The position numbers and the translations under genes were made by a program. Below are positions 1-62,081 of a DNA stretch of 64,000 nucleotides, one piece after another. The notes below the pieces were generated by a model. The model was not told the origin of the DNA. It did not search any database and saw nothing but the letters and a program-made list of their open reading frames with translations. The stretch's first letter is position 1; each line of letters starts with the position of its first letter. This DNA comes from Neoarius graeffei (taxonomy: Eukaryota; Chordata; Actinopteri; Siluriformes; Ariidae): positions 43,887,732 through 43,951,731 of the forward strand of contig NC_083587.1 in NCBI RefSeq assembly GCF_027579695.1, in the 5' to 3' direction.

Positions 1-76
1 CCCTGACTTTTGAACTTGTTGCTGGTAACAGTCTGGATCGTCTTTTTCATCTTTGGGGCACACAGCTTCCATTTAT
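1..76 (-). mobile_element. Tc1-like transposon A, middle fragment
   Basis: Read on the minus strand, this piece resembles the middle of the Tc1-type transposase found near 63400-63480 (the WPKDKKDHPDCYQ region). It is the part of element A cut off from its N-terminal half (10091-10560) by insertion of element B at a TA. The rest of the copy would lie left of the window. It is an old DNA transposon with no function expected. Confidence 0.6.
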
Positions 77-1064
77 TACTAACCCCATTTCCAGAAAAGT
101 TGGGATATTTTCCAAAATGCAATAAAAACAAAAATCTGTGATTTGCTAATTCACGTGAACCTTTATAACTGACAAAAATACAAAGAAAGGCTTTTCAGTA
201 GTTTTATTGACCAATTTAATTGTATTTTTAAATAAAATTAGAATATGTTGCCTTAAACACACTCAAAAAAGTTGAGACAGAGGCCAAATGAAGCTGAAAA
301 GGTTATAGGATATTCAAGCAACACCATTTTGGAAGATTCCACAATAAGCAGGTTAATTGGTAACATGATCAGGTATAAAAGGAGCAGCACCAAAGGCACC
401 CACCAGGAAGGCAGCAGGACCAGACAACATCCCTGGGCGGGCCCTCAGAGTATGTACCAATGAGCTGGCTGATGTTTTCACCACCATCTTCAACCTTTCC
501 CTTAGCCAGAGCACCATTCCCTCCTGCTTCAAGACCACAACCATTGTCCCTCTTCCCAAGAAGAGCCCACCCACCTGCCTGAATGATTATAGGCTGATAG
601 CACTCACTCCAATCATCTCAAAGTGCTTTGAGAGAATGGTACTGACCCACATTCAGAACAGCATACCGGAAACCCTGGACCCCCTGCAGTATGCCTACAG
701 GCCCAACAGGTCCACCTCAGATGCCATTGCTGCTGCCCTCCATTATGCCCTCTCCCACCTGGAAAACAAAGATTCTTACATCAGGATGCTCTTTTTTGAC
801 TACAGCTCTGCCTTCAACACGGTCATCCCCTACAAACTCATCTATAAACTGTCCACACTTGGTTTGCACCCCACCCTCTGTGACTGGCTCATCGACTTCC
901 TGACTGGCAGGCCCCAGGATGTCAAGATTGGTAATAGGACTTCATCAAGCATCATCACAAACATTGGCACCCCACAGGGATGCGTCCTCAGCCCCATCCT
1001 CTACACTCTGTTCACCCATGACTGTGTTGCCTCCCACAAGGACAACATCATCCTGAAGTTCGCG

Positions 1065-2662: not shown

Positions 2663-2965
2663 TGTAACGACCCTACGTGTGGGTGGAGCACAGAGGACGG
2701 CAGGACAGAGATCAGGTTTTATCAACTGGCTTTATTGCCACACTTTTCAGTCTAGCAATACTTTTTACAGAGACACACACACAACTGGCGTCTGGTTCAG
2801 GGTTGCGCCCCTCTGCTCTCGCTCTCCCTCCTGATATAGGGCGCAGTCACTGGGAAGACACACAAACAGGTTAATTGCTCTCAGGTGACGTGATTCTGCC
2901 ACTTACCTTCCCTGACTCCGCCCTCCTGTCACAGACCGGCGCTTGACCACGCCCCCGCTGCCACA
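2663..2965 (-). repeat. 3' LTR of the Gmr1-like element
   Basis: On the minus strand it begins TGTGGCAGCGG and ends CGTTACA, the TG...CA pattern. It matches the other LTR over its full length by eye. The stop codon of gag-pol lies inside it. Confidence 0.92.
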
Positions 2966-5900
2966 TACCCCCACCGCCCGACTCAGGCCGGGCGGCCGTC
3001 CGGCCTGCAGCCGACTCCCCCCCCCCTTGACGGGAGAGGAAGTCCGCCACGACCATCTGCGCCCCCGGCCTGTGGACCACCTTGAAATTAAAGGGTTGGA
3101 GCGCCAGATACCAACGGGTGATCCGCGCGTTGGCATCCTTCATGCGGTGGAGCCACTGGAGGGGCGCGTGGTCCGAACAGAGGGTGAAAGGGCGCCCCAG
3201 CAGGTAGTACCGGAGGGCGAGAACCGCCCACTTGATGGCCAGACACTCTTTCTCTATGGTGCTGTAGCGCCCCTCACGCACCGACAGCTTCCTGCTGATA
3301 TACAGGACAGGGCGGTCCTCCCCCTCCACCTCCTGGGACAAAACCGCCCCCAGCCCTCTGTCCGACGCATCGGTCTGCAACATAAAAGGGAGAGAAAAGT
3401 CAGGGGAGTGTAGAAGTGGCCCCCCACACAGTGCAGCCTTTACCTCTGAGAAAGCCCGCTGGCACTGCTCCGTCCACTGGACCGGATCTGGTGCCCCCTT
3501 TTTAGTGAGATCAGTCAGCGGGCTGGTGACGTCCGAATAATTAGGTATAAACCTGCGATAATAGCCAGCCAGCCCCAGGAACTGTCTCACCCCCTTTTTG
3601 GTCTTGGGCCTCGGGCAGGCCGCAATTGCTGCCGTCTTATTAATTTGGGGACGCACCTGCCCGTTGCCCAAGTGGAAGCCCAGATACCGTACTTCCACCC
3701 GCCCAATCGCACACTTCTTTGGGTTGGCTGTGAGCCCCGCTCGCCTCAGTGACCTAAGGACAGCCCTCAGATGTTCGAGGTGCCGCTGCCAGTCATTACT
3801 ATAGATGATTATGTCATCTAAATATGCTGCTGCATACGTGGCGTGAGGGCGGAGGACTCTGTCCATCAGCCGCTGAAACGTCGCGGGCGCCCCAAACAGC
3901 CCAAACGGAAGGGTGACGAATTGGTGTAAACCAAACGGTGTGGAAAAGGCCGTTTTTTCTCGGGATAGTGGAGTCAAGGGGATCTGCCAATATCCCTTCG
4001 TCAAATCCAGTGTCGAATAAAAGCGAGCAGTGCCGAGTCGATCGAGCAACTCATCAATACGAGGCATTGGGTACGCGTCGAATTTAGACACCGCGTTGAC
4101 TTTCCTATAGTCCACACAGAACCGGACCGACCCGTCGGCCTTGGGTACCAAGACCACCGGGCTGCTCCAGTCACTGTAGGACTCCTCGACGATGCCCATT
4201 TCGAGCATGGTCTGAAGTTCTTCCCGAACCACCTTTTTTTTGTGTTCGGGTAGCCTGTAAGGGCGGCTACGCACTACCACCCCCGGGGGCGTCTCTATGT
4301 GGTGCTCTATGAGGTTAGTGCGACCGGGCAGGGGCGAGAACACATCCGAAAACTCGGTCTGCAACTGGGCGACCTCCGTGAGTTTGGTCGGGGAGAGGTG
4401 GTCTCCACAGGGGACCGGAGAGGTACGCGATGCCAATGTCCCTTTTTGAACCTCCGGCCCCAGCTCCGCCTTCTCTGGAACTACCGACACCAACGCCACG
4501 GGGACCTCCTCGTTCCAGAGTTTAAGCAGGTTGAGGTGGTAAATCTGTAGCGCCCCACCCCTGTCCGTTCGCCTCACCTCATAGTCGACGTCCCCGACTC
4601 GCCGTGTGACCTCAAAGGGTCCTTGCCACTTGGCGATCAATTTGGAGCTCGACGTGGGCAACAGTACGAGTACCTTATCTCCCGGAGTGAACTCTCTAAG
4701 GCGCGTACCCTTGTTGTACAGGCGGGCTTGCCGTTCCTGGGCCTGCCGCAAATTCTCCTGAGTTAGGTGCGTGAGTGTGTGGAGTTTTGCGCGCAGGTCC
4801 ATAACGTACTGAATTTCGTTCTTACTTTGTGAAGGTCCCTCCTCCCAATTTTCCCGCAGCACGTCCAGGATGCCGCGCGGCTTACGCCCATATAATAATT
4901 CAAACGGGGAGAACCCCGTGGAGGCTTGGGGGACCTCTCGCACTGAGAACAGCAAGGGTTCGAGCCACTTATCCCAGTTACGTCCGTCCTCACTTACGAA
5001 TTTTTTAATAATATTTTTGAGGGTGCGGTTGAATCGTTCCACTAAACCGTCCGTTTGTGGGTGATACACGCTGGTGCGGATCGGCTTAATCCCCAATAAC
5101 CCATACAGTTCGCGCAGTGTTCGTGACATAAACGTAGTGCCTTGATCAGTCAGAATCTCTTTCGGGATTCCAACTCGGGAGATGACGCGGAAGAGTGCCT
5201 CGGCAATACTGCGTGCTGAGATATTGCGCAGAGGCACTGCTTCCGGGTATCGCGTTGCATAGTCCACCAGAACTAATATAAAGCGGTACCCTCGTGCTGA
5301 CCGATCTAATGGCCCGACGAGATCCATCCCAATTCTCTCAAACGGGGTCTCGATTAACGGTAGAGGGCGCAAAGGCGCTTTTGGAATGGCCGCTGGGTTT
5401 ACTAACTGGCATTCGCGGCATGCCGTACACCACCTACGGACATCGCCGCGAATCCCCGGCCAATAGAAACGGGCCATTATTCGGGCTAGTGTTTTATCCT
5501 GCCCCAAGTGTCCGGCCATGGGATTAAAGTGAGCCGCCTGGAATACCAATTCCCGGCGGCTCTTCGGAATTAAAAGCTGCGTGACTCGCTCTTTAGTTTG
5601 AGTGTCCTGCGTCACTCGGTATAATCTATCCTTCATAATCGCGAAGTAGGGGAAGGACGGGGTGGCGTTCGGCGGGAGCGTTTGACCATCGATTACTCTC
5701 ACTTGGTCAAACGCATGCCGCAGAGTCTCGTCTCGCGACTGCTCTAATGGGAAATCCGCGAGGGATTCCCCAAGAGAGAGAGGAGGAGCCGGCGGCTCCT
5801 CACTCTGACGCGGAGATGACGTAGACGGCTCTGTGACAGCTGCTCCCGCCAAAGCGACACCGGGACCTCCCCCTGTCAAATGGCAGGACCCACTCTCGAC

Positions 5901-7232
5901 TAGGCGTGTCATTAAACCCCGAAATCCCGGCCAATCAGTCCCCAAAATTAGAGAGTGGGTAAGGCGAGGATTAACCGCCGCCTTCACTATAAATTTTTCC
6001 CCTCTGAAAATAATGTGGACCGACACCAAAGGGTAGCTGTGAACATCCCCGTGCACACATAACACCTTCACCCCTTGTGCTCCCCCCAATGCCTCATTTT
6101 GAACCAGGCTTTGGCGAATTGAGGTCTGATTACAACCAGAATCCACCAACGCCTGATATGTAGCCCCTTGGATACTCACCGGTATGCGATACGCTCCGGC
6201 CCGATCGAGGGCGGCCTCTGGCGCGTCGGGGATCCGAACCACCGCGCCCACTTCCGTTGCCGTGCACTGCTGTTGAAGGTGGCCCAGCTCCCCGCAGCGC
6301 CAGCAAACCGGCCCGGGCTTTCCCTCTGCACCGGTGATCTGGGGCTCACTCACCTGAGGTGGGGGAGAGACAGACACAGAAGGGAGAAACGGGAGGGCAC
6401 CGCGGGTGCGGCGGGCCGGCTGGGGGGGTGCCGGCCCCCGCCTCCGCGGAGGGGGAATGGGGCAAGGACAGGACACAGGAGGAGGGGGAGAGAGAGAGAG
6501 AGAAGAGGAGAGAAGAGAAGATGCCATCTGCTGTCCTGCCGCCGGGACAGCCGCCAGATGATCCTCCGCCAGCTCGACTGCCTGATCCAGCGACGCCGGG
6601 CGGTGGCACTGGACCCACTCCGCGGTTCCGGCTGGTAAGCGGGCGATGAACTGTTCCAGTACCACCTGGTCGACGATTCCCTCGGCGTCGCGATCGTTGG
6701 CCCTCAGCCACCGCCAGCAGGCGTCCCGGAGCTGCTGGCCGAACGCGAACGGCCGGCCGACTTCCTCCAGTCGCAGCGCGCGGAAGCGCTGGCGCTGTTG
6801 CTCCGGTGTGCGCCCCACGCGCTGGAGGACGGCCCGGCGAAGGTCCGCGTAGGCCAGCCGGCGGTCGGCGGGGAGCTGTAGCGCGGCCAGCTGTGCCTCT
6901 CCCGTGAGCAGGGGGAGGAGGCGCGCCGCGCGCTGCTCCATCGGCCACCCCGAGGCTTCGGCGACCTGTTCAAACAACGTGATGAACGCCTCGGGGTCGT
7001 CCTGCGGGCCCATCTTGGTGACAATGAGGGGAGACGGGCCCGCGGCCGGAGCGCTGGTGGACCCCGCCGACGCGAGGAGATGCCGGAACGCCTCGCGATC
7101 TTCCTGCTGGGCCAGCACCAGGGCTTCGAAGCGCTGCTCCTGCTCCTTTTGGAGCGTGACGAGTGCCTGGTGCTGGCTTTGCTGAGCCGTGGCGAGGGCG
7201 TGGATCAGATCGGCGAACGGGGAGGATTCCAT
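2871..7232 (-). CDS. Gag-Pol polyprotein of the Gmr1-like element
   Basis: A single frame of about 1453 codons encodes the structural and replication proteins of the retrotransposon. I take the start at 7232 (MESSPFADL), the first methionine after the primer-binding site; the open frame itself extends upstream into the LTR. Visible order: Gag region (1-300), zinc knuckle CWRCGELGHLQQQC (about 310-323), aspartic protease VDSG (about 360), integrase HHCC zinc finger (about 570-610), integrase core D, D and E with 35 residues between the last two (TDQG near 695, VERF near 733), reverse transcriptase with FCVDYRKVN (about 1043) and YLDDIIIYS (about 1140), and RNase H TDASDRGLG (about 1288). Integrase before RT is the mark of the Gmr1 group. 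Gag and Pol share one frame, so separation would have to be proteolytic. It is an element protein, not a host gene. Confidence 0.9.
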   Translation of the reverse strand: MESSPFADLIHALATAQQSQHQALVTLQKEQEQRFEALVLAQQEDREAFRHLLASAGSTSAPAAGPSPLIVTKMGPQDDPEAFITLFEQVAEASGWPMEQRAARLLPLLTGEAQLAALQLPADRRLAYADLRRAVLQRVGRTPEQQRQRFRALRLEEVGRPFAFGQQLRDACWRWLRANDRDAEGIVDQVVLEQFIARLPAGTAEWVQCHRPASLDQAVELAEDHLAAVPAAGQQMASSLLSSSLSLSPPPPVSCPCPIPPPRRRGPAPPQPARRTRGALPFLPSVSVSPPPQVSEPQITGAEGKPGPVCWRCGELGHLQQQCTATEVGAVVRIPDAPEAALDRAGAYRIPVSIQGATYQALVDSGCNQTSIRQSLVQNEALGGAQGVKVLCVHGDVHSYPLVSVHIIFRGEKFIVKAAVNPRLTHSLILGTDWPGFRGLMTRLVESGSCHLTGGGPGVALAGAAVTEPSTSSPRQSEEPPAPPLSLGESLADFPLEQSRDETLRHAFDQVRVIDGQTLPPNATPSFPYFAIMKDRLYRVTQDTQTKERVTQLLIPKSRRELVFQAAHFNPMAGHLGQDKTLARIMARFYWPGIRGDVRRWCTACRECQLVNPAAIPKAPLRPLPLIETPFERIGMDLVGPLDRSARGYRFILVLVDYATRYPEAVPLRNISARSIAEALFRVISRVGIPKEILTDQGTTFMSRTLRELYGLLGIKPIRTSVYHPQTDGLVERFNRTLKNIIKKFVSEDGRNWDKWLEPLLFSVREVPQASTGFSPFELLYGRKPRGILDVLRENWEEGPSQSKNEIQYVMDLRAKLHTLTHLTQENLRQAQERQARLYNKGTRLREFTPGDKVLVLLPTSSSKLIAKWQGPFEVTRRVGDVDYEVRRTDRGGALQIYHLNLLKLWNEEVPVALVSVVPEKAELGPEVQKGTLASRTSPVPCGDHLSPTKLTEVAQLQTEFSDVFSPLPGRTNLIEHHIETPPGVVVRSRPYRLPEHKKKVVREELQTMLEMGIVEESYSDWSSPVVLVPKADGSVRFCVDYRKVNAVSKFDAYPMPRIDELLDRLGTARFYSTLDLTKGYWQIPLTPLSREKTAFSTPFGLHQFVTLPFGLFGAPATFQRLMDRVLRPHATYAAAYLDDIIIYSNDWQRHLEHLRAVLRSLRRAGLTANPKKCAIGRVEVRYLGFHLGNGQVRPQINKTAAIAACPRPKTKKGVRQFLGLAGYYRRFIPNYSDVTSPLTDLTKKGAPDPVQWTEQCQRAFSEVKAALCGGPLLHSPDFSLPFMLQTDASDRGLGAVLSQEVEGEDRPVLYISRKLSVREGRYSTIEKECLAIKWAVLALRYYLLGRPFTLCSDHAPLQWLHRMKDANARITRWYLALQPFNFKVVHRPGAQMVVADFLSRQGGGESAAGRTAARPESGGGGMWQRGRGQAPVCDRRAESGKVSGRITSPESN

Positions 7233-7258
7233 GGGGCTGCGGGTTTGGTGCTCCACTG

Positions 7259-7276
7259 TCCCGGGTTTCAGCACCA
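7259..7276 (-). other. Primer-binding site of the Gmr1-like element (tRNA-Phe type)
   Basis: Immediately next to the 5' LTR, the minus strand begins TGGTGCTGAAACCCGGGA. This is close to the complement of the vertebrate tRNA-Phe 3' end including CCA. The placement one base inside the LTR is standard. Confidence 0.8.
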
Positions 7277-7277
7277 C

Positions 7278-7580
7278 TGTAACGACCCTACGTGTGGGTG
7301 GAGCACAGAGGACGGCAGGACAGAGATCAGGTTTTATCAACTGGCTTTATTGCCACACTTTTCAGTCTAGCAATACTTTTTACAGAGACACACACACAAC
7401 TGGCGTCTGGTTCAGGGTTGCGCCCCTCTGCTCTCGCTCTCCCTCCTGATATAGGGCGCAGTCACTGGGAAGACACACAAACAGGTTAATTGCTCTCAGG
7501 TGACGTGATTCTGCCACTTACCTTCCCTGACTCCGCCCTCCTGTCACAGACCGGCGCTTGACCACGCCCCCGCTGCCACA
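7278..7580 (-). repeat. 5' LTR of the Gmr1-like element
   Basis: 303 bp, TG...CA on the minus strand, matching the 3' LTR throughout by eye. GACAT follows at 7581-7585. Its U3/R/U5 borders cannot be fixed from the sequence alone. Confidence 0.92.
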
Positions 7581-10565: not shown

Positions 10566-11320
10566 ATCTTCATCCCATCTTTGCTCCTCCTGATTCTCAT
10601 GCCCTCGCCACTTTCATTGGCCCTGGGACTGATGCCAACATCAAGGGCCCCATTGATGAAGGACTCATCTGCCAGTTGGGGTTGGACCAGGTTCCTCTCT
10701 CTCTCTCCCGGTTCCAGCCAATGCCCTTGATGGTCATCTTCTGGGGACTATCACCCATCAGACCACTCCAGTCTGCATGCTCCTGTCAGACAACCATCTT
10801 GAGACCATCCAATTCCACATCTTGCGGTCACCTAACATCCCTTTGATCCTTGGGTACTCTTGGCTTCGATGTCACAACCCACATATCAACTGGATGACTG
10901 GTGCTATCTTTGGATGGAGTCCTTCCTGTCACCAGGTCTGCCTCAAGCATGCTGCTATGGCTTTGCACTTGCCTTCACCCATTTCTGTTCCAGATGTGTT
11001 GGGGGTCCCTCCTGAATACCATGACTTCAGGGAAGTGTTCAGTAAGGCCAAGGCTATGTTCCTGGTCCCTCACTGTCTGCATGACTGTGCCATTGACCTG
11101 CAGCCTGGCACATCCCCTCCCAAGGGATGCCTGTACTTCTTGTCCACCCCTGAGAGAGAGGCCATGGAGATCTACATCAATGACTCTTTGGCTGCTGGCA
11201 TCATCTGCCCTTCCTCCTCTCCTGCAGGGGCAGGGTTCTTTTTTGTGGAGAAGAAGGATAAGACTCTGAGGCCCTGCATTGACTACCAGGGCCTCAATGA
11301 CATTACCATAAAGAACCACT

Positions 11321-13148
11321 TAGTAGAGCAGATAAGCAGATGAATCGTGCACAAGATGATAAAAGCATGAAACTTTCAGGGTTTGTTCTTGAGGGCATAA
11401 CAATTAATTTAAGATCTGGAGGCACTCTCAGTTTGACCTTGGAGGTCAATTAGAGGTCATTGAGGTCATCAATAGGACATTTCTATGCATGAGAGCTGAA
11501 ATGGGTGTGTTTTTGGGAGCAATTTTGCTAAAAATGTACAGTAAGTATAAATATGCATGTATTAAGGCATAATCAAGTAAATAAACATAAATAGATATAC
11601 ACCCATAGAGGTAAATGAATGAAATAAACAAAAAACGTAATGATAATAACGTAAAATTGGGAAATGGCAGATGAACTGTAACTAATAGATACCCAGGTAA
11701 ACTACATAAATGTAATCATTAAACTGGAAGGATTTCTTATCTGTTAGTGAAAACAAAACAGAATTGTTCCACTTTCTTTCTGTTCAAATTGCTGCCATGG
11801 CATTAGCTCCTGGCAAAGAAGTATATGCCACAAACGAAAAAAATGTCCTCAGCTCTCCTGTTGGCTGTGATGTAAGTAATTTGGTTCCATGCACTCAAGA
11901 GGAGGCAGACACAAGGCTATTCCTTCATGTGGCAGATGCTGCTAAAAAGGGACTTAAGAATGTGTTAGTTAGAACAGTGGATTCAGATGTGATCGTCTTG
12001 GCAGTAGCTGTATTTCAGAAAGTTGACCTTGAAGAAATGTGGATAGCCTTTGGAACTGGTAGCACTTTCTGCTATATTGGCATCCACAAGGTGGTTGCTG
12101 CTCTTGGTCCTTCCACTAGTGATGCTTTGCTCACATTTCATTCTTTCACTGGCTGTGATACAACATCAGCATTCTGTGGCCGTGGTAAAAAGACTGCTTG
12201 GGACACGTGGCTTGTGTACCCAGAAGTCACGGAGGCTTTTCACGAAATGTTGCAAATGCCACAAGAACTGAGTGACCTGTCTTTGTCACAGCTGGAATGC
12301 TTTGTTGTTCTCATTTGTGACAGAACAAGTGCATGTGTAGGTGTCAATGAGGCACGGAAACATCTTTTCACACGAAAGTCAAGATCATTGGAAAACATCC
12401 CCCCTACACAAGCTGCTTTGAGACAACACATCAAACGAGCCATGTATCAGGCTCATGTATGGAACCTTGCCTTGGTTATTAGGCCCCAGTTGCCAAGTCC
12501 TTCAGACTGGGGATGGGTTAACAGTGACGATGGATGGCAGCCACTTTGGACAACACTACCTGAGGCCTCACAGTCGTGCTATGAGCTTTTGCATTGTGGT
12601 TGCAAAAAGGGCTGTTGTGGTCACTGCAAATGCAAAAAGGCAGAATTGAAGTGTACTGCCCTTTGTGCATGTTCTGGAGACTGCAATGATTAGAATACTC
12701 ACATTAGGCCTGTATCACTTGTATCACTCATTTGGAAGTCATTTTACAATTACAAAGTATATACTGCTTGGCAATATGCTACAAAATCATAAAAGTTGTT
12801 GAAATTGACATAACACATCATATATTTTAGAGTGACCTTCATCTTAACCTTGACTTCTAAGTGTAATATCACTATAAATGGACCCTCATGACCTAGAAAA
12901 ATGGAAATCCACATGTAATTACAATTTTTGTCACACTTATATGATAAAATGCCCCAATTTTTAATCCTGTCCATTGAAATTGCACATAACAAGGGTCGAT
13001 GACCTCTAAATGACCTCCAAGGTCAAACTGAGAGCGCCTCCAGATCTTAAATTAATTGTTATGCCCTGGAGAACAAACCCTGAAAGTTTCATGCTTTTAT
13101 CATGTTGTGCACAATTCTTATGTATATAGGGCCTTAACAGCTCTACTA
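11321..13148 (+). mobile_element. TIR DNA element carrying a FEN/PIN-like ORF
   Basis: Inverted repeats of about 130 bp bound the element: the left TAGTAGAGC (11321) pairs with the right GCTCTACTA ending at 13148, and the matching continues inward past gtgcac, gataaaagcatgaaac and gatctggaggc. ACT flanks both ends (11318-11320 and 13149-13151), a 3-bp target duplication. Removing the element restores a continuous gypsy RT reading at the junction, so the boundaries are well supported. It contains one long ORF (11764-12693). No DDE-type transposase was seen, so its mode of movement, or its partner, is unknown. Confidence 0.8.
11764..12693 (+). CDS. Transposon-encoded protein with FEN/PIN-like nuclease motifs and Cys-rich tail
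   Basis: A 309-residue open frame. I recognise the sequence as one of a set of repeated uncharacterised proteins in fish and invertebrates. Three blocks line up with the C-terminal half of FEN1/XPG-type nucleases: QEEADTRLFLHV (45-56), like the EAEA helix; TVDSDVIVLAVA (71-82), like the DxD block; and GCDTTSAFCGRGKKTAWD (120-137), like GCDYxxxxxGxGxxxA with its helix-hairpin-helix. The C-terminus (282-308) is rich in Cys (GCKKGCCGHCKC) and may bind zinc. The first two acidic residues of a full FEN fold are not seen, so the N-terminal part may be missing or spliced in from upstream. The start used is simply the first ATG. Enzyme activity is inference. Confidence 0.6.
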   Translation: MFHFLSVQIAAMALAPGKEVYATNEKNVLSSPVGCDVSNLVPCTQEEADTRLFLHVADAAKKGLKNVLVRTVDSDVIVLAVAVFQKVDLEEMWIAFGTGSTFCYIGIHKVVAALGPSTSDALLTFHSFTGCDTTSAFCGRGKKTAWDTWLVYPEVTEAFHEMLQMPQELSDLSLSQLECFVVLICDRTSACVGVNEARKHLFTRKSRSLENIPPTQAALRQHIKRAMYQAHVWNLALVIRPQLPSPSDWGWVNSDDGWQPLWTTLPEASQSCYELLHCGCKKGCCGHCKCKKAELKCTALCACSGDCND

Positions 13149-14417
13149 ACTATCCCTTCCTCTCGTCTGCTCTGCATTCGAGTTGTTGCAAGGGGTGACC
13201 ATCTTTACCAAGCTTGATCTCCACAATGCCTACCATCTAGTTTGGATCTGGGAGGGTGATAAGTGGAAGACCACCTTCAACACCGCTACTGGACATTACG
13301 AATACTTGGTAATGCCCTTTGGTCTTACTAATGCCCCTGCCATGTTCCAAGACTTGGTTCACAATCTGCTGAGGGACATGCTGATCATTATGTGTTTATT
13401 TACTTGGATGACATCCTCATTTTCTCCAAGTCTCATGAGTAGCATGTTCACCATCTCCAGCCCATCCTGCAGTGTCTCTTCAAAAACTCCTTCTTCGTCA
13501 AAGCTGAGAAGTGTGAGTTCCATGTCCTTTCTGTCTCCTTCCTGGGGTACATCGTGGCACAGGGCAGCATGCAGAATGGGCCCAGCCAATGTTTTGGCAG
13601 TCATCTCCTTGCCAGTTCTGGACTCCCACAAGCAGCTACAATGGTTCCTGGGGTTTGCCAACTTCTACTGCCACTTCATCTGCAACTATAGCTCCATTGC
13701 CACCCCTCTCACAGCTCTCAGTTCCTCCAAGGTGCCCTTCATTCAGCTGGACTTAAGCCACCCATGAAGCATTTCAGGCCCTCAAGTCCCAGTTCACCTC
13801 TGCTCCCATTCTCCAAGTACCAGATCGTGATCATCAGTTTGTCGTGGAGGTGGATGCCTCCAATGTGGGAGTGGGGGCTCTCTTGTCTCAACATGCAGGC
13901 ACCGACCAGACACTCCACCCCATGCCTTTTTCTCTTGGTGACTGTCACCTGCTGAGAAAAATTATGACATCAGCAACAGGGAGCTGCTGGCTGTCAAGCT
14001 GGCATTGGAGGAGTAATGACACTGGCTCGAAAGGACCAAACAACCCTTTTTGGCACAGACTGACCACAAGAACCTCGAATACAGCCAAACAGCCAAGACA
14101 CCTGACGCCTTGTCTCGCCTGTTCCAGAGAGAAAAGGATTCTGCTTCTGGGCCCAACTCCATCCTCCCTCCCCCCTCCATGGTCACCACCTTGGCCTGGG
14201 AAATTAAGGAGATAGTGAGGTCCACCACCAAGGGTCAGCCTGGGCCCAGTGCTTTCTCCCCTAACTGCCTGTTTGTCCCTCCGGCTCTGAGGTCTAATGT
14301 GCTCCAGTGGGCCCATGTCTCCAAGCTCACCTGCCACCCCAGGATCCAGAGAGCCCATGATCTTCTCCTTCAGCGGTTCTGGTGGGCCACCCTTGAAGAA
14401 GACACATGGAAACCATA

Positions 14418-30423: not shown

Positions 30424-31857
30424 CTACTGCAGTGACTCGTTCAAGCTGTGGTCACTGGGAAAACTGCGACTCATGTTGGATAGACTGGCCATTAGAGACT
30501 TCACTTTATGTGCATAATAGTTCCTCAAGTTCACTGAAGGTACTTCCTTAATGTCCCCACTAAAGTCACAGCTCCTCATGGCGATCTCCAACTGTTTCTG
30601 CCTCTTATAAAACAAAGAGAACTTGTTGAAAATGAGTGTGATGGGCAGCACCACCACCAAGATGCCAGCAAGGATGCAAGCTGAAGCAGTGAGTTTTCCG
30701 GCAATAGACCCTGGCACCACATCTCCATAACCCACTGTAGTCATGCTAACTGTTGCCCACCACCAGCAAGCTGGGATAGTAGTCAGCCCATCATTTTCCT
30801 CCTTCTCAATGGTATAGGCCATCACAGAGAAGAATGACACCCCCACTGCCAAATAGAGCAGTAGCAGACCCACTTCCCTGTAGCTGTTTTTCAGTGTTGC
30901 TCCAAGTGACCTTAAGCCAGTGGAATGACGTGCCAGTTTCAGGATTCTGAAGATTCGCATCAGCCTCAAGACCTGTGCTACACGTCCCAGGTTCTCCAGT
31001 GTAGGACGCCTCTCAGCCACTAATTCAATCAGTAGTGTGAGATAAAATGGTAGAATAGACACCAAGTCAATCACATTTAATGGGTGCTCAAAGAAATGGA
31101 GTAGGTCTGGTGCAACAACAAACCTGACAACCAGTTCAAACGTGAACCAGCCTATTCCAAAATGCTCCACTGTCTCAAAACGGGGGTCTTCCTGAAGCAG
31201 GCCTTCTCTGTTCAGAATGGCAAAATCACTCATGCTGTTCATGCACATGGTGGCTATGGAGCCCAGCACCACCAGGATAGAGAAAACACTAATGACCCGG
31301 CTAGACACAGAGTAGCCAGGATTATCCAGCATCAGCCAAACCTTCCTTCGGACTCTCCCAAGTGGCTGCTTGTCAAACTTGGTTGCATCACTATAGAATA
31401 CTAAAATCTCGTCAAAAGAAGAAGTAGTGCTGTCCTCATCACTTTTATCCTCCCACTCCTCCTGGTACGGCTCCATTTTTCTGCAGTGGTAGGTGCTGCT
31501 GCAACAGGAGTCAATGAAAAAGTCATTGATCCCCCAATACTCGATTTCCTGGGTAAATGAGAAAATGCAGAGTTCTTCCATAACATGCAAGCGGCCTGTG
31601 TTATAGAAATTCAAAACATAGGGGAAAAGTGCAGGATTTCGATCAAAGTAGAACTCCCTTTCGGTGTCATCGTAATCATCACACAGTTCCAGGATGGATT
31701 CTTTCGACTGGCATCGCAGTAAGCGGGCAAGTCGCGTCTCAGGGAAGCGACACAGTATGCTCGAGAGCAACCTCCTCTTGAAGCCTCCTACGTTGATGCG
31801 TATGGCACTATTCTCTGTATGAAACACATTGAAATCCTTGAGAGTGTGTGCAGTCAT
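30424..31857 (-). CDS. kcns2: Potassium voltage-gated channel modifier subfamily S member 2 (Kv9.2)
   Basis: Encodes a 477-residue electrically silent Kv subunit. It is known to join Kv2 subunits in the plasma membrane and alter their gating rather than form channels alone. Visible parts: T1/BTB tetramerisation domain (about 18-125; IRINVGGFKRRL, YFDRNPALFPYVL), six membrane segments (S1 about 186-207, S2 233-250, S3 261-278, S4 290-312 with VLRLMRIFRILKLARHS, S5 328-348, S6 391-412), and the selectivity filter TTVGYGD (about 373-379). S6 reads LPITLIF where Kv1-4 have PxP; loss of the second proline is typical of silent KvS subunits. The protein matches human KCNS2 over its whole length as I remember it, including the C-terminus. 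The coding region is one exon. I chose 31857 because it gives the mammalian length and an MTxxxLxD start with G at -3; an in-frame ATG at 31917 would add 20 residues. A good splice acceptor lies just upstream, so a noncoding first exon is likely. Confidence 0.95.
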   Translation of the reverse strand: MTAHTLKDFNVFHTENSAIRINVGGFKRRLLSSILCRFPETRLARLLRCQSKESILELCDDYDDTEREFYFDRNPALFPYVLNFYNTGRLHVMEELCIFSFTQEIEYWGINDFFIDSCCSSTYHCRKMEPYQEEWEDKSDEDSTTSSFDEILVFYSDATKFDKQPLGRVRRKVWLMLDNPGYSVSSRVISVFSILVVLGSIATMCMNSMSDFAILNREGLLQEDPRFETVEHFGIGWFTFELVVRFVVAPDLLHFFEHPLNVIDLVSILPFYLTLLIELVAERRPTLENLGRVAQVLRLMRIFRILKLARHSTGLRSLGATLKNSYREVGLLLLYLAVGVSFFSVMAYTIEKEENDGLTTIPACWWWATVSMTTVGYGDVVPGSIAGKLTASACILAGILVVVLPITLIFNKFSLFYKRQKQLEIAMRSCDFSGDIKEVPSVNLRNYYAHKVKSLMASLSNMSRSFPSDHSLNESLQ

Positions 31858-31917
31858 GGCTTGAAAGTCGCCGTAAGACTGACTATTGCAAGGATTAAAA
31901 TCCTTTCCACAAATCAT

Positions 31918-31950
31918 GAAGCCTTTTGGGTGAACTGACAAGAACGAACA
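31918..31950 (-). other. Probable splice acceptor ahead of the kcns2 coding exon
   Basis: The minus strand reads ttgttcgttcttgtcag followed by ttcaccc. This pyrimidine-rich tract ending in CAG is well placed to end a 5' UTR intron. Mammalian KCNS2 also has noncoding 5' exon sequence. Confidence 0.5.
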
Positions 31951-32139
31951 ATATCACTCGGTGTTTCTCTGGTAGGACAAATCCTCACTCTTTGACAGAG
32001 GTAAGAGTTGTGAAACTCATTCAAGAGCTTCGTAAGTCAACTGTCTCATATATGACTATAAATAACTACCTGGATGTTTTGCACTTTTAATAAATTGATT
32101 AGTTTGCTCTTAAATATCCTCCAATGGTATAATACATGC

Positions 32140-49685: not shown

Positions 49686-62081
<12,396 letters not shown>

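Follow-up and report, generated by a model that had tools for sequence, protein, structure and literature searches.

Can a DNA transposon be moved by a flap-endonuclease-like protein alone? The question is raised by a 1,828-bp element of Neoarius graeffei, which lies within the window, that is, the whole stretch of 64,000 nucleotides that was analysed (contig NC_083587.1, positions 43,887,732 to 43,951,731). An earlier note saw in the only protein of this element a FEN/PIN-type nuclease, and proposed either a little-described kind of mobile element or a deletion derivative that carries a passenger nuclease. We find the element to be largely ordinary: it is a shortened, non-autonomous copy, and the cut-and-paste transposon from which it derives is most likely of a kind already known. 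It has inverted ends and is bordered on either side by ACT:

11321-13148, plus strand: whole element, a DNA transposon of probable Academ type shortened by internal deletion
11318-11320, no strand: target site duplication ACT, left copy
13149-13151, no strand: target site duplication ACT, right copy
11321-11336, plus strand: outer terminal block of the left end, TAGTAGAGCAGATAAG
13133-13148, minus strand: outer terminal block of the right end, TAGTAGAGCTGTTAAG read inward
11332-11463, plus strand: inner inverted-repeat arm, left (132 nt, 92% complementary)
12996-13127, minus strand: inner inverted-repeat arm, right, beginning 10 bp further from its own end than the left arm
10660-11317, plus strand: left portion of the retroelement pol frame that the insertion interrupts (the target)
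13152-13764, plus strand: right part of the interrupted pol frame (RVT_1, E 1e-12)

The two inner arms bear out the inverted ends of about 130 bp claimed in the earlier note, and the outer blocks pair as well (11320-11336 with 13133-13149, 88%). Further copies were sought in the organism's own assembly (2.34 Gb in 38 contigs), where 23 of the best 40 scored, from 307 candidates, cover element positions 1-1825 or more unbroken at 94-100% identity, the window copy included. The counts of ends, duplications, deletion junctions and substitutions below come from a sample of 35 distinct places in this genome, which were best search matches or were hand-picked from match lists (L014 is in the sample; L035 is out, as it overlaps L042 and is the same place). 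Both ends are present in 27 of the 35, counting the window copy, and the 3-bp target duplication, which the earlier note had read correctly in the window, is perfect in 20 of these 27 and absent as a perfect duplication from the other seven. The more distant places L039, L040, L041, L042 and L056 also have a 3-bp duplication candidate at their chosen ends. Three matches within 1 Mb of a single contig (G000:C2:8726220, 9101281 and 9651564) have equal identity and equal stops, which suggests segmental duplication of one old copy.

The site of insertion could be recognised from its empty counterparts. When a 199-bp query, made by joining the two flanks minus one ACT, was searched against the genome, 38 of the best 40 scored (1,048 candidates) matched it unbroken at 74-85% identity, the remaining two being the window's own two halves. 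Since these matches run through without interruption, the insertion point is demonstrated, as the earlier note had held. The target is thus reverse-transcriptase sequence of which uninterrupted copies exist; by its motif we, like the earlier note, call it gypsy-type. Its left half gave no Pfam match at E 0.01.

The window contains other coding sequence as well. Positions 2874-7346 on the minus strand hold a retroelement frame of 1,491 aa that includes a SCAN domain; within this frame Pfam places the integrase upstream of both the reverse transcriptase and the RNase H. The frame resembles Gmr1-type gypsy elements. At 58767-60446 (plus strand) there is a reverse transcriptase frame that looks LINE-like by eye (RVT_1, E 4.5e-33), and 54418-54984 (minus strand) holds a Tc1/Tc3-like transposase remnant (HTH_Tnp_Tc3_2, E 1.4e-4, below its cut-off). 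A host-gene-like frame with BTB_2 and Ion_trans domains (30427-31953, minus strand) would, by its domain layout, encode a voltage-gated potassium channel subunit.

The coding part of the element consists of a single open frame:

11716-12690, plus strand: open frame, C-terminal part of the nuclease and Cys-rich tail (first ATG 11797, stop 12691-12693)
11899-11910, plus strand: EEAD motif, aligned by eye with FEN1 TEAEA
11980-11988, plus strand: DSD motif, aligned with FEN1 DMD/DYD
12151-12201, plus strand: GCDTTSAFCGRGKKTAW, aligned with FEN1 GCDYCESIRGVGPVTA
12595-12690, plus strand: Cys-rich, CXC-like tail, assigned from the sequence

The earlier note gave this ORF 309 residues; the frame is there, and its length is 325 aa, or 298 aa from the first ATG. 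The EEAD, DSD, GCDxxxxxxGxGKKxA and Cys-rich motifs named in that note are all present. Taken together, the ends, duplications, empty sites and ORF motifs lie far outside what chance would produce. Family searches returned little: the ORF matched no Pfam family at a maximum E of 10, Pfam XPG had no match either in it or in the six further proteins scanned, and the four matches of Pfam XPG_I across the whole genome fall at none of the listed places of ORF relatives. NCBIfam, used on four proteins, gave one match at chance level (E 0.052), and a PDB sequence profile search with the nuclease found no FEN chain, its sole match being an iron-binding protein at E 2.1. An AlphaFold2 single-sequence model of the window ORF (pLDDT 34) was unusable as a fold.

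The nuclease was also compared with FEN by profile. Our FEN profile combines a yeast Rad27 sequence with archaeal FEN sequences from 48 of 53 loci; L107, whose frame is shorter than 300 aa, and L122-L125 were excluded. In hhalign the nuclease scored 31.1 against this profile (E 0.0045, probability 8%), above each of 100 column-shuffled FEN profiles (maximum 24.7) and the reversed one (14.7). Confident alignment extends over 57 columns at and around the GCD motif; once the confidence limit is relaxed, the remaining groups of acidic motifs also line up roughly, in order. A forced global alignment of the two was meaningless and was set aside.

Relatives of the ORF were searched for in the organism's own genome and in viral and prokaryote collections. 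In the genome, 132 of 1,262 candidates were scored and yielded 133 matches, and those listed include many families, to 44% identity, with frames up to 571 aa. None of the pattern matches to relatives in the viral contig collection (35 and 121) or in prokaryote genome contigs (192) was confirmed. The families of L039-L041 and of L042 have an extra N-terminal stretch with two aspartate motifs, DGAA and WDTY/WDVY. These first two motifs (DGAA, WDTY) are gone from the window ORF, being located in a part that it has lost, and the ORF itself does not hold the full catalytic acidic set of FEN/XPG nucleases. That set is found in order in the complete relatives L041, L042, L068 and L069. Aligned with L068, L069, L070 and L056, the nuclease domain reads D, D, EEAD, DxD, GCD...G.GKK, with departures (the first motif is altered in L070, and L068 has GAD instead of GCD). 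With FEN1, XPG, EXO1 and GEN1 the nuclease shares the order D, D, an ExE-like motif, DxD, and a D followed by a glycine-rich motif; it is very remote from them, has an additional Cys-rich tail and is fused to a transposase. By motif order and the above-control, if weak, profile match, the domain is likely related to FEN/XPG, so this part of the original assignment stands for the domain, and the ORF in the window is short of its first two aspartate motifs.

What the window copy has lost can be seen in longer copies. L055 is 98.5% identical to element positions 401-1828 and has, upstream of the nuclease and running into it, a frame of 1,252 aa; a frameshift lies between its nuclease parts, and its left end is lost. 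(Upstream of the L055 gene, where that end would be, there is a repeat that looks tRNA-SINE-like by eye, and a TA run.) Three other copies, L061, L062 and L063, lead from the left end of the window copy (element positions 1-401) through the L055 leader into the beginning of the L055 gene, of which 109-162 codons, counted from the first Met, are present; L062 also ends with the right end of the window copy, and L067 combines the left end and the leader with part of the nuclease. These joins reach the N-terminal part of the gene, and the D-D-E region is seen, within the window family, in L055. Together, L055 and the left-end copies therefore identify the window copy as the parent minus about 4.05 kb, lost, transposase included, through one internal deletion, across which the following stretch runs:

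11714-11731, plus strand: stretch across the internal deletion junction, which falls between 11720 and 11722 with one ambiguous base

From these pieces a full-length copy of the window family would measure about 5.9 kb; none of the copies obtained from the window copy's own family combines both ends with a complete gene. The identical junction occurs in 23 of the 35 places, a share that is biased upwards, since the places were found by searching with the short element or with its ORF. The 12 places without it comprise five in other families (L036, L039-L042) and seven other versions of the window family; L028, L031, L018 and L037 retain part of the missing nuclease N-terminus. A search with an N-terminal query found frames of more than 1,000 aa in the same genome; one of 2,060 aa, at C12, passes through letters read as N. 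By comparison with the longer copies, then, the window ORF is a truncated C-terminal domain, left over from a large protein that joins transposase and nuclease.

These copies bear directly on the idea of a new class of mobile element that is moved by a FEN/PIN nuclease alone. The window copy, which has no other recognised protein, is what one would expect of it, and the earlier note rightly saw no DDE transposase there: no window frame of at least 40 aa matches a profile of the related transposase region. However, copies that share the left end of the window copy run into a transposase gene, and relatives have transposase and nuclease fused in one frame, so that such a class, with a nuclease-based transposition of its own, is in effect refuted by the longer copies and has a negligible probability. 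Of the other proposal, the deletion derivative is supported by the shared junction and the parent L055, whereas the nuclease is not a passenger but the shortened C-terminal domain of a transposase-nuclease.

The transposase region is best seen in distant families of the same genome. L056 has both ends, with 111-bp arms at 90% and a 3-bp duplication, over 6,812 bp, and its frame of 1,378 aa has its stop in the nuclease. In L068 (1,565 aa) and L069 (1,270 aa), both open at the edge of the locus, a single frame covers all three parts, the transposase region, the nuclease and the Cys tail; L070 is a diverged relative split over two frames. A genome search with the L056 transposase region scored 75 of 199 candidates and yielded 89 matches, and among those listed one is stop-free, within a frame of 1,612 aa. 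Four transposase regions were aligned, with identities of 26-27% to the first of them; 39 columns are invariant in all four, including D14 (DNxD), D188 and E404, and we infer that these three residues are likely the catalytic triad. Pfam DUF6589 matches four of five large proteins (L055, L056, L068 and L070; E 2.4e-5 to 1.4e-3) below its cut-off and does not match L069, and the CXC model of Pfam, TCR, matches L069 below its cut-off (E 8.6e-4) and L068 at chance level. A PDB profile search with the transposase region found no relevant chain. Pfam named no other transposase superfamily in six proteins at a maximum E of 10, although the HMMER filters remove the majority of matches whose E exceeds about 0.1; the models for Harbinger, CACTA and Zator, which we take to be other DDE superfamilies with Pfam transposase models, gave none. 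Near L042 a frame of 113 aa (2-340, minus strand) looks transposase-like by eye and has no Pfam match at E 0.01; as it lies about 600 bp beyond the element end, outside the chosen ends, it was ruled out as part of the element.

To which superfamily does the parent belong? With good confidence we read the window element as a non-autonomous, internally deleted DNA transposon of the cut-and-paste kind, and most probably as an Academ element of the AcademX type. The primary paper for the AcademX lineage is Kojima 2020. The terminal inverted repeats expected of Academ/AcademX are present in the element. In the accessible text of PMC10045372, AcademX has duplications of 3 or 4 bp and AcademH of 9 or 10 bp, and duplication size seems tied to the encoded protein, a nuclease in AcademX and a helicase in AcademH; the 20 of 27 two-ended places with a perfect 3-bp duplication agree with the former. 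A nuclease encoded together with the transposase, likewise an AcademX feature and there presumably of XPG type, is found in the relatives, and the window copy keeps its C-terminal part only. As far as the published description goes, AcademX is, like the family studied here, a nuclease-encoding DNA transposon with 3-bp duplications, inverted ends and a full size of about 6-7 kb, and the window copy differs from it in having neither the transposase nor the nuclease N-terminus. AcademH, placed in the same superfamily by the published account, differs in its longer duplications and its helicase (PMC10045372). The Kolobok lineages KolobokE, P and D, as described in the available part of PMC9587614, are likewise a DDD/E superfamily with differing accessory nucleases, but their nuclease types and transposase superfamily are others.

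An unlikely alternative is a DDE enzyme of another or an unnamed superfamily that gained a FEN-like nuclease independently of AcademX. Consistent with it, DUF6589 matches stay below threshold, and the terminal sequences are not the same from one family to the next. Our literature search gave no source that ties DUF6589 to Academ, and none of the ten papers it listed mentions DUF6589. The accessible parts of PMC4455052, PMC9587614, PMC9004415, PMC8290104 and PMC9783078 treat Academ as an accepted superfamily and describe no nuclease in it. Against this alternative, nuclease and 3-bp duplication together make up the AcademX profile of PMC10045372, zebrafish, medaka and stickleback carry Academ according to the accessible text of PMC4746887, the mean full length of bivalve Academ given in that of PMC10294476, 5,565 bp, is near the sizes found here, and Pfam suggested no other superfamily. 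We therefore regard the parent as a probable member of AcademX, placed there by the published description of the lineage. The earlier note would have counted full copies with an ordinary DDE transposase of a known superfamily as a refutation. That outcome is reached in part: the transposase gene is there, and the invariant residues and the published descriptions suggest its DDE chemistry and its Academ identity.

Is the truncated ORF itself still of use? Changes at non-CpG positions were counted in 30 copies of the window family (L036 and L042, at less than 93% identity, were set aside), and the ORF has accumulated 43 silent, 108 replacement and 5 stop changes, corresponding to an omega of 0.89-1.03 (kappa 2-4). 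Between the window copy and L042, over 317 codons, dN is 0.119, dS 0.91-0.97 and omega 0.12-0.13; for L041, both comparisons yielded no estimate because of saturation. The nuclease was thus constrained between the window and L042 lineages, and among the short copies there is no clear constraint on the ORF, which is a decaying remnant. The truncated ORF might instead be a selected product, for example a repressor or helper supplied in trans by short copies, for which the KP product of P elements is a precedent. Many copies do retain an intact frame, one junction is common to the 23 places (with the bias noted above), and the five stops are slightly scarcer than expected (stop/silent 0.12 versus 0.14-0.18). 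However, the short copies differ from their majority by only 0.84%, so their open frames require no selection, and the first two nuclease aspartates are absent. With omega near 1, we consider it very improbable that the truncated ORF is under selection for such a role.

The two ends of the element are not equally spaced. In the 19 window-family places with an end pair and an exact duplication, one inner arm lies 10 bp deeper in the element than its counterpart, each counted from its own end, and the offset is 10 in L039-L041, 10 in L042 and 9 in L056 (regions compared: window 11321-11380 and 13089-13148; L036, L039-L042 and L056). Automatic alignment of the arms of L036 gave 0, a gapped arm having hidden the offset, which is 10 when the ends are read directly. 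These are four families only, of which those of the window and L042 are closely related and not independent; the shorter end lies 5' of the gene in three families and on its 3' side in L036/L042. An offset of 9-10 bp is about one helical turn and may be relevant to the pairing of unlike ends. A spacing logic of this kind would resemble that of the 12/23 rule in V(D)J recombination or that of P elements with their unequal ends. It is a tentative and somewhat doubtful further step to suppose that the fused nuclease is integral to transposition, resolving branched or hairpin intermediates, and that the ends are deliberately unlike under a 9-10 bp rule.

Full copies of the parent, then, would encode one large protein composed of an N-terminal region, a D-D-E type transposase region, a FEN/XPG-like nuclease and a CXC-like tail. 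Supplied in trans by another copy, this protein would bind the inverted ends and excise the element, which would insert with a 3-bp stagger, and the nuclease domain would probably trim branched intermediates at the ends or the target. Internal deletion following excision is the usual source of non-autonomous derivatives, and in the present case one faulty repair after excision may have removed the 4.05 kb, leaving a shortened element that retained both ends and multiplied.

The apparent nuclease-only transposon is thus the remnant of a transposase-nuclease fusion, and a tempting lead is closed. Many related families exist in this one genome, some of them with long single-frame genes, and they offer material for asking why a transposase bears a domain resembling flap endonucleases, and whether it is of any consequence that the two ends differ in spacing by one helical turn.
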